Positions 40,758-43,922 of a stretch of 64,000 nucleotides of DNA are shown here, piece by piece. Under the pieces are notes generated by a model. It worked only from the letters and a program-made list of their open reading frames with translations, made no database searches and was not told where the DNA came from. Numbering within the stretch: the stretch's first letter is position 1; every line of letters starts with the position of its first letter. The stretch is taken from NCBI RefSeq assembly GCF_003568845.1, contig NZ_CP030126.1, forward strand, positions 2,711,501-2,775,500. The letters are read 5' to 3'. The DNA is from Indioceanicola profundi. GTDB taxonomy: Bacteria > Pseudomonadota > Alphaproteobacteria > Azospirillales > Azospirillaceae. The translations under genes were made by a program, and so were the position numbers.

Positions 40758-40834
40758 GCGCCCGTAGCTCATCAGGATAGAGCGCGAGTTTCCTAAACTT
40801 GAGGCAGCAGGTTCGAGTCCTGCCGGGCGCACCA
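40758..40834 (+). tRNA. tRNA-Arg (anticodon CCT)
   Basis: 77-nt cloverleaf with encoded CCA: acceptor GCGCCCG/CGGGCGC, D stem GCTC/GAGC, anticodon stem CGAGT/ACTTG with loop TTCCTAA (anticodon CCT), T arm GCAGG TTCGAGT CCTGC. Accessory-looking small genes follow, but no integrase was seen. Confidence 0.95.
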
Positions 40835-41486: not shown

Positions 41487-41708
41487 ATGGCCTATGTCGT
41501 CACCCGTGTGCCCCGAATTTCCAAGCACTGGGGCATCCATGACCGCCAGACCAATCTCTGGTGCCCTGTTCCCGCCGGCGAGGATGCGGCCATAAAAGTC
41601 TGCGAGCGCCTGAACAACGGCGCCAAGGCGCCGCCGCTGCCCTGGATCGAAATTCCGGCCGAGAAGCACGGCGCCACCGACAGCCGCAGCTACCGCGGAG
41701 CCGGCTGA
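41487..41708 (+). CDS. Small hypothetical protein (73 aa)
   Basis: MAYVVTRVPRISKHWGIHDRQ... with a perfect GGGAGGG ribosome binding site 7 bases ahead. Soluble, with two Cys and several Trp; could be a small nucleic-acid- or metal-binding protein, but no family was recognised. Confidence 0.65.
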   Translation: MAYVVTRVPRISKHWGIHDRQTNLWCPVPAGEDAAIKVCERLNNGAKAPPLPWIEIPAEKHGATDSRSYRGAG

Positions 41709-41889
41709 CGCCGTCCGGCACTCCCGAAACCGCACCGACCGACGGTCGCAGGTTGGTTCCCGCCTTGTAGGGCATGGGCGCCATGCGGCCGTCTCAGCTT
41801 GACCAATCTCATCCGATACAGGATGTATTGCTTTCCCGCACATATCTGCTGTGGGCCCGCCAATACCAGGCCGTATCGGGAGATTTCCC

Positions 41890-42171
41890 ATGATCGCGCA
41901 TGTTCTCAGGCGCCTCGGCGCCCTCGTTTCCGGCCCGCCGCGGGCCGATTTCAGCGGAATTCCGCCAAACCTGCTCCGTGATGTGGGGCTGGACGGGTCG
42001 CATATCCGGATGATCGCTGTCTCTCCGCGGGAGCAGGATACCGCCCCGTCCAAGCGTCCTTTTTCGTTCCGGACCCATCCGGCATCGGAACTGGTTGAGT
42101 TGAGGGACAGATCGGCTGTTGCATCCGTTTCGGATTTCCGGCACAACATTGCCGGTTCGCTGGCGGCCTGA
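41890..42171 (+). CDS. DUF1127/YjiS-like small protein (93 aa)
   Basis: Contains FSGIPPNLLRDVGLDGSHIR at about residues 21-40, close to the LSDRLLRDIGL-type motif of DUF1127 proteins, which in alphaproteobacteria bind RNA and affect phosphate and C/N metabolism. The remaining residues are polar and not recognised. GGGAG ribosome binding site at about 41877. Confidence 0.6.
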   Translation: MIAHVLRRLGALVSGPPRADFSGIPPNLLRDVGLDGSHIRMIAVSPREQDTAPSKRPFSFRTHPASELVELRDRSAVASVSDFRHNIAGSLAA

Positions 42172-42296
42172 CTGCCGCCGGTGGATGCCGGGTTCGACGT
42201 GCCCGGCGGTGAGAGCGGTGTACGAAGCTGGCGGAACGATCCGGTTCCGGCGGTGTCAGAAGAGAAATCCCCTCTGAACGAGAAGGAGATCGAGAC

Positions 42297-42473
42297 ATGA
42301 CCATGACCCTGATGAGCTACGGGACCGGCGTCCTGCTGTGCGCCAACTCTCCCTTTGCCGCGGGCGTCGTGGAAGGCGCGCCCAAGGCGCGACGTCTCGT
42401 CAAATATCGTTTGAAAGAGGGAAGACATGAGCATCTTCGTATCGCTGGGCGCCGGGCCCAAATTCTTCATTGA
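42297..42473 (+). CDS. Small ORF (58 aa), overlaps the next gene
   Basis: MTMTLMSYGTGVLLCANSP..., preceded by AAGGAG (42283-42288) at good spacing. It ends inside the next small gene (which begins at 42427 in another frame). The second half is Arg/His-rich. Real translation of the first half is likely; function unknown. Confidence 0.45.
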   Translation: MTMTLMSYGTGVLLCANSPFAAGVVEGAPKARRLVKYRLKEGRHEHLRIAGRRAQILH

Positions 42474-42675
42474 GCTGGCCCGCTGGGCCGACGCCCCTCG
42501 GGGCCTGGACATCCGCCGTGAGAATGGGGAAGTCCTGATCTGGCTCGGCAGGCTGCACGTTATCTACACGCCGGCCCGTTGGCGGCCGGAAACCCGCGGT
42601 CCGACGATTGGAGGCCCCACGATTGGACCCACGTTCGATGGACAAGACCCGAGCAGCCGCAAGCTTGCGGCCTGA
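42427..42675 (+). CDS. Small hypothetical protein (82 aa)
   Basis: MSIFVSLGAGPKFFIELARWADAPRGLDIRRENGEVLIWLGRLHVIYTPARW... A GAGGGA ribosome binding site sits just ahead of ATG 42427. The N-terminal 50 residues look folded (alternating strands with Trp/Phe); the C-terminus has a short PTIGGPTIGPTF repeat that overlaps the MarR start. No family recognised. Confidence 0.55.
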   Translation: MSIFVSLGAGPKFFIELARWADAPRGLDIRRENGEVLIWLGRLHVIYTPARWRPETRGPTIGGPTIGPTFDGQDPSSRKLAA

Positions 42676-43066
42676 ACAGCTCGATCCGCTGGTCCGGGTG
42701 CTGGAGGCGTTCCGCCTTCTGGACCCGGACCTGCCCATCCAGTACGCGCTGAGCTTTCTGACCATCGCCCAGAATGAAGGCATGTCCATCCGCGACCTGT
42801 CGGAGCGGCTGGGCATCGCGCAGAGCAGCGCCAGCCGCAATGTGGCGGCGCTGTCCAAATGGCACAGCTTCGGCAAGGAGGGCCACGATCTGGTGCAGGC
42901 GGAGGAGGACCCTCGCGAGCGCCGGCGCAAGATCGTGACCCTGACCCCGAAGGGCCGCACCCTGGCACGTCATCTGGCCGAGCTTATCGGCGGTGACGGC
43001 AGCCAGGGCGGCGGCCGCGGCGGTGATGCCGACGAAGCGCCCCTGCGCCGCGCCCGCGCCGGCTGA
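42638..43066 (+). CDS. MarR family transcriptional regulator
   Basis: A 142-residue winged-helix protein: FRLLDPDLPIQYALSFLTIAQNEGMSIRDLSERLGIAQSSASRNVAALS (helix-turn-helix, about residues 27-75), then HDLVQAEEDPRERRRKIVTLTPKGRTLARHLAELI (the MarR wing). ATG 42638 is chosen; a TTG at 42608 is an alternative. It overlaps the small gene upstream by 38 bases, so it is probably co-transcribed. The tail is Gly/Arg-rich. Confidence 0.85.
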   Translation: MDKTRAAASLRPEQLDPLVRVLEAFRLLDPDLPIQYALSFLTIAQNEGMSIRDLSERLGIAQSSASRNVAALSKWHSFGKEGHDLVQAEEDPRERRRKIVTLTPKGRTLARHLAELIGGDGSQGGGRGGDADEAPLRRARAG

Positions 43067-43266: not shown

Positions 43267-43922
43267 ATGATCTGGGAAGAGCTGTACGCCCTGGCACAGG
43301 TGCTGTTCATCGACCTTGTGCTAGCGACAATGCCATCGTGGTCGGAATGGCCGCCGCGGGCGTGGCGCGCAGCCAGCGCCGCACCGTCATTTTCTGGGGC
43401 ATCGCGGCGGCGGCCGTGCTGCGCATCGTCTTCGCCCTGCTGACCACCCAGCTGCTGGCCATCATCGGCATCACGCTGGCGGTCGGCGTCCTGCTGCTCT
43501 GGGTCTGCTGGAAACTTTGGCGCGGACTGCGCCAGCAGGCGGAGGAGGACACCGGAGCCGAGCTGGTGGCGGAAGCCGCGGGCGAACATGCCCCGCATCC
43601 GAGGGCCGACGCGCTGCCCGATGAGGGCACCAAGCCGGTGGGAGTCGCCATCCGCCAGATCATCCTGGCCGACGTCTCCATGTCGCTGGACAATGTGCTG
43701 GCCGTGGCCGGCGCATCCCAGGACCATGAATGGGTGCTGGTGGTGGGGCTGGCCATGTCGGTGGTGCTGATGGGCGTGGCGGCTACCGTGATCGCCCGCG
43801 TGCTGGAGCGGCACCACTGGATCGCCTATATCGGCCTGGCCGTGATCGGCTGGGTGGCCGTCAACATGATCTGGACCGGCGGGTTCGAAGTATTCGATAC
43901 CGTGAACAGCGCCGGCGGCTGA
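43267..43922 (+). pseudogene. TerC/YjbE-type integral membrane protein, frameshifted near the N-terminus
   Basis: From ATG 43267 one frame reads MIWEELYALAQVLFIDLVLA, the expected first helix, but it breaks at 43324; the body (DNAIVVGMAAAGVARSQRRTVIFWG to AVIGWVAVNMIW) continues in another frame to 43922. The family consensus there is DLVLAGDNAIV, so four bases (about one Gly codon plus one base) appear to be missing. The downstream frame is also open upstream to an ATG at 43110 with a ribosome-binding-site-like GGGGGAG, so a fusion protein without the first helix could be made. The family exports metal ions (Mn2+ in relatives). Sequencing error cannot be excluded. Confidence 0.72.

Follow-up and report, generated by a model that had tools for sequence, protein, structure and literature searches.

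P2, P3 and P4, three small open reading frames, and the marR gene behind them constitute, judged by comparison of their sequences across genomes, a conserved chromosomal module. It most likely represents an autoregulated switch of a repressor and its partner, which shares its ancestry with temperate T7-like phages. We consider it fairly probable that P2-P3-P4-marR is a self-regulated operon, fixed in the chromosomes of the Azospirillaceae and of a small number of further alphaproteobacterial families, and that its P4-marR part and the repressor/partner pair of temperate T7-like phages are homologous to each other; the last two genes could be a viral control circuit retained by the host. The sequence-based part of this reading comprises the gene order, the P3 frame, the repeats, the MarR homology and the P4-like ORFs beside phage MarR genes.

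The window, i.e., the whole stretch of 64,000 nucleotides that was analyzed, lies in a genome of 5.4 Mb whose closest relatives by named matches are Niveispirillum, Oleisolibacter, Skermanella and Azospirillum. The following features were located:

40758-40834: tRNA-Arg (CCT)
41487-41708: P1, the first small ORF, small hypothetical protein
41799-41824, plus strand: candidate operator O1, TTGAC-N7-ATCCGATACAGGAT, an inverted repeat behind a -35-like TTGAC, upstream of P2
41890-42171, plus strand: P2, 93 aa, N-terminal half weakly DUF1127-like
42077-42090, plus strand: candidate operator O2, ATCCGGCATCGGAA, within the 3' part of P2
42119-42135, plus strand: TTGCAT promoter-like element, overlapping a further inverted repeat ATCCGTTTCGGAT (printed copies inspected)
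42297-42473, plus strand: P3, overlapping leader ORF of 58 aa, Shine-Dalgarno (SD) sequence AAGGAG at 42283-42288
42427-42675, plus strand: P4, microprotein of 82 aa, putative MarR partner
42638-43066, plus strand: marR, MarR-type winged-helix regulator, 142 aa

The starts of the four small ORFs (41487, 41890, 42297, and 42427) agree with those of the first-pass annotation, and the coordinates bear out the nested overlaps described there: in the window copy P3 and P4 share 47 nt in different frames, and P4 overlaps marR, which starts with the ATG at 42638, by exactly 38 nt. The proposed tie of the small ORFs to marR holds for P2, P3 and P4, for which the link is conserved in other genomes, but not for P1. 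The latter was rejected as a module member, having few relatives (matches in 2 of 59 genomes, one of them its own) and no tie to P2-P3-P4-marR; P1 and the tRNA-Arg gene are bystanders of the module. A paralogue of P1 is encoded elsewhere in the same genome (C2:961371, 40%), and one further relative was detected in genome G014.

P4 and MarR were searched in 59 genomes, including the one carrying the window. Matches to P4 were obtained in 21 and matches to MarR in 27 of them, 20 of the latter containing a close MarR (153 bits or more). In all 20 genomes with a close MarR the P4 gene lies directly upstream of it, so that the co-occurrence which the first-pass annotation had suggested as a check was indeed found; the leftover P4 match (G003, E 3.4e-4) has no adjoining MarR. 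The pair is present in every sampled species of the genera g8, g12, g13, and g5 and in none of g2 and g6. A scan of GTDB yielded 48 loci, mostly named Azospirillum, Niveispirillum, and Skermanella, and within a class-wide sample 15 of 385 genomes, own family counted in, matched at E 1e-8 or better. P4 also occurs in other families (loci L168, L169, L170), and other alphaproteobacterial families display the same architecture with repeats at L181 and L182 and a looser one at L183. Of the 72 loci gathered, L151 and L184 (apparently the same contig) have no P4 and L113 is cut; the others were collapsed to 56 distinct copies, which are related and hence do not stand for 56 independent events. By eye, the P4-less MarR relative of L184 (4871-6512) is located directly upstream of dnaN- and recF-like genes.

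The first-pass annotation had made its case depend on conservation of the small frames. A P3 frame with SD and ATG is present in 56 of the 56 distinct copies (other two frames: 1/56 each), and this conservation rules out chance ORFs. The stop codon of P3 sits 35, 44 or 47 nt inside P4, and the frame persists across clades even where the P3 peptides have lost their mutual resemblance. Since the P3 peptide is weakly constrained (pN/pS 0.63-0.98; other frames of the same DNA 0.83-1.32) and P4 more strongly (pN/pS 0.08-0.51), it looks as if for P3 being translated counts for more than the peptide made. Folding gave no support for a coupling of P3 and P4 through RNA structure (mean z -0.17; unpaired value of the P4 SD 0.39 when free and 0.37 when P3 was kept open).

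For residues 1-50 of P4 the AF2 model, which is confident there (block means 79-90), predicts a five-stranded beta fold. Comparison of this fold with the PDB gave no match at E 0.001 or better; in a second PDB comparison the best match was RseB (Z 4.5, rmsd 2.8 over 48 residues), which means little. In a comparison with viral models, the third rank went to a protein of 42 aa from phage S35-C6; a 42-aa CDS, which may encode this protein, is annotated directly upstream of MarR in that phage. Neither P2, P3 nor P4 matched a component of the anti-phage defence systems in PADLOC, and MarR gave weak CARF/wHTH-type matches only (best E 1.7e-4).

The candidate operators follow the palindrome-like consensus ATCCG-N4-CGGA(T/A), the O1 repeat being placed 7 nt behind TTGAC; the window O1 departs from this consensus at one position. 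When each part was allowed a single mismatch at most, O1 was found in 49 of 56 copies and O2, near the 3' end of P2, in 52 of 56; one of the 56 (L150) has just 185 nt upstream, with O1/O2 out of view. These counts come from the very copies on which the motif was defined. A downstream control region, which is mostly coding and consequently of different composition, gave 0 of 56. From these counts it appears likely that MarR autoregulates its own operon, and we infer binding of MarR to O1 and O2 from their co-occurrence. The TTGCA of the promoter-like element is kept in most copies, and the repeat overlapping it differs between clades by inspection. The exact pattern TTGAC-N7-ATCCG-N4-CGGA occurs 26 times in the 59 genomes: 17 module genomes out of 20 have it at the module itself (17 occurrences), three occurrences fall in the 39 module-free genomes and six elsewhere in module genomes, five of the six being one near-identical sequence. 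This distribution supports the notion of a regulator that would be devoted mainly to its own operon. The sixth site (L214 1513-1537, G017:C2:634717), in Azospirillum sp. TSO35-2, precedes an MFS transporter by about 140 nt and may be an extra target. In the window's own genome a perfect CATCCGAGATCGGATG palindrome lies at C1:224753 (L194), within an AT-rich gap that is close to a gene recognized by eye as of the ABC-F type.

The regulator is, according to its profile scores, related to the MarR fold and outside the curated Pfam MarR models. It exceeds the cut-off of the winged-helix DNA-binding domain PF13463 (27.7 bits, cut-off 22.2), matches phrog_9665 (transcriptional regulator) with E 3.9e-30 and misses MarR_2 (26.4 bits vs. 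27) and MarR (19 vs. 24.6). With chromosomal autoregulated operons of the TcaR-like or MarR type the module shares a winged-helix regulator and palindromic operators in its own promoter region, which here are candidates. Its MarR is only remotely similar to these in sequence, TcaR being the best match among solved structures (E 0.0011), and the module differs from them by having P4 as the partner and, in the exact pattern search, almost no targets beyond its own operon.

P2 homologues occupy the same position in many module copies. Within clades their pN/pS is about 0.35-0.56, a rough value since some ORFs were wrongly picked (e.g., L135, L110). The DUF1127-like motif of the first-pass annotation was recovered in part: two of eight scanned P2 homologues show a weak DUF1127 (PF06568) match, the better one at E 2.7e-4 and 21.1 bits, below the cut-off of 23.3, whereas the window copy matched no Pfam family, DUF1127 included. 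P2 homologues resemble the DUF1127 (YjiS-like) small proteins in a motif of the kind L-xx-D/RDIGL and differ from them by scores under the Pfam cut-off. This likeness, together with the position of P2 as the first gene behind O1, agrees with a stress-response operon whose output would be the DUF1127-like P2, with P4 and MarR as its control only. P2 is, however, the least uniform part of the module, L054 retaining only its 3' part, and such an operon is without a known inducing condition; we regard this explanation as possible, though not probable.

A tblastn search against 50,697 phage records revealed a MarR match in 55, the best being gp10 of LUZ100 (52.6% identity, E 4e-23). T7-like phages were long held to be strictly lytic; a role of the LUZ100 MarR in the control of lysogeny has the status of a proposal (PMC10134795). 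The marR of HTVC022P is described as an early gene (PMC12753301), and TRX32-1, a phage bearing P4, was induced from a lysogen as stated in its record. To 25 phage loci, 24 of them from named phage records and the other from an unverified faecal contig, we applied a P4 profile (A2) built from 18 chromosomal P4 sequences and zero phage rows, two identical Azospirillum rows having been dropped. Among 919 phage ORFs ranked by this profile, 60 of which are directly upstream of MarR, the best seven all have this position: LUZ100 gp09 and ORFs of two Rhizobium phages and four HTVC120P-type pelagiphages (E 2.7e-5 to 0.0043), altogether about three lineages. The eighth match (E 0.2) is unrelated. After two profile rounds in which six phage or prophage ORFs were added, a P4-like ORF was found in 16 of the 25 loci at E 0.006 or better; it was not found in nine, cyanophages and the HTVC200P/HTVC119P type included, nor in the temperate phage Pasto. 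In the cyanophages P-SSP7, S-CBP1 and S-CBP3 (L155, L162, L208) a look-alike ORF upstream of MarR was recognized by eye, the profiles being not significant; these ORFs, which have the motif YLG-DKES...HIG-RLEW in common, may encode P4 proteins that have diverged.

Scans of IMG/VR with the alignments of MarR (A1) and P4 (A2) gave zero confirmed relatives. A1 contained 20 of 21 intended rows (L031, with a stop inside, was omitted) and includes LUZ100, whose score with A1 is therefore by construction. In the same database the 18-base operator pattern matched one sequence, in 2,071 nt of which neither profile matched, and the full palindrome plus flanks had zero matches. Overall, P4 appears to represent a family of MarR-partner microproteins that is undescribed and is shared by temperate T7-like phages and Rhodospirillales chromosomes; in the open-access literature, to which the survey was confined, no prior description of a P4-MarR module was found.

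The lysogeny module of temperate T7-like phages (gp09-gp10-integrase in LUZ100; Pelagibacter phages of the HTVC022P and HTVC120P types; the Rhizobium phages RHEph01 and TRX32-1) accordingly has in common with the host locus a homologous MarR and, in those 16 phage loci, a P4-like microprotein ORF immediately upstream of it. The two differ in several respects. With LUZ100, RHEph01 and HTVC022P queries, tblastn detected neither integrase nor T7-type RNA polymerase in the window and the chromosomal copies, and by this gene content the window module is not a prophage module. P2 and P3 are additions of the host locus, and the host copies are fixed in chromosomes of several genera. An ATCCG operator shared with LUZ100 was rejected, since a scan of 6.6 kb allowing up to one mismatch detected no such repeat there. 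In the simplest reading, temperate T7-like phages and Rhodospirillales share a two-gene switch of repressor and microprotein, which the former use and the latter maintain with extra upstream genes.

In the mechanism that we propose, a MarR dimer would bind ATCCG-N4-CGGA(T/A) at O1, in the P2 promoter, and also at O2, upstream of the second promoter-like element ahead of P3, and would thereby repress its own operon. Ribosomes on the P3 leader would pass over the start of P4 and terminate 35-47 nt within it, tying P4 output to P3 translation. P4, a predicted small beta-sheet protein made just before MarR, presumably acts on MarR as an antagonist or a co-repressor, and the result would be a two-state switch. 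The pair bears on the question of lysogeny control in T7-like phages: the conserved ORF in front of the phage MarR, unannotated in several of the examined phage records, is a candidate for the missing half of the lysogeny switch, and the fixed host copies in Azospirillum offer a tractable and non-pathogenic system for studying it.

The MarR tree leaves the direction of transfer unresolved. It is compatible with an operon born in an alphaproteobacterial host as an autoregulated MarR operon, from which P4-marR was captured by T7-like phages; the chromosomal copies are moreover stable and constrained, as the pN/pS of P4 indicates, and occur throughout the sampled species of some genera. Outside the group, however, sampled MarR relatives often adjoin a LUZ100-like integrase: in a phylum-wide sample five other genomes of 397 matched at E 1e-15, with such an integrase at three of the five loci and a clear P4 at one, and L187 likewise has this neighbor. 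In addition, the order P4-MarR-integrase-RNA polymerase spans phages of Pelagibacter, Rhizobium and Pseudomonas. A host-born operon seems unlikely to us. A P4-like ORF, MarR and a LUZ100-like integrase occur together in L223, a prophage from a different class of the same phylum. On account of the integrase neighbors of MarR relatives elsewhere we lean towards a phage origin of the P4-marR pair, which then presumably passed from phage to host and not in reverse. An extended version, in which the Rhodospirillales domesticated a T7-like phage switch, P4 founds a family of MarR antagonists setting lysis or lysogeny, and the host copy may still serve for immunity against such phages or for sensing them, appears quite improbable.

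The idea of island remains beside the tRNA gene, put forward in the first-pass annotation, did not survive: among 20 relatives' loci of 8-12 kb, one of which (L072) is a weak P4-only match without MarR, 18 lack a tRNA gene and the other two carry tRNA-Leu and tRNA-Lys, and the composition deviates not strongly, with a GC content of 65.0% compared with a window mean of 68.5% (8th percentile) and a tetranucleotide distance at the 34th percentile. An island was rejected on this tRNA survey, the neighborhoods, the composition and the lack of a LUZ100-like integrase or RNA polymerase nearby. A decaying prophage remnant, to which the phage-type regulator, the tRNA 0.7 kb from the first ORF and the slightly low GC could point, is already largely refuted by conservation and hardly credible, as the module is present in 20 of 59 genomes, several genera having it in all their sampled species and other genera in not a single one, the ORF frames are intact in 56 copies, LUZ100-like integrase and RNA polymerase are absent near the copies (a diverged integrase could escape detection), and T7-type RNA polymerase occurs in just one of 82 family genomes, far too few for judging whether module-bearing genomes exclude T7-like prophages. 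This genome (G028) belongs to a genus without a P4 match and showed no MarR match (best E 0.79) in 18 kb around the polymerase gene.

As to the further surroundings, the tRNA is the only Rfam match between 38000 and 46000, apart from a plastid model that scored below threshold on the strand opposite to it. The hemW neighborhood is common to the window and two of the 20 relatives' loci. Downstream of marR, at 43267-43922, a gene for a TerC/YjbE-type membrane protein is apparently split across two frames, by a frameshift or an assembly error.
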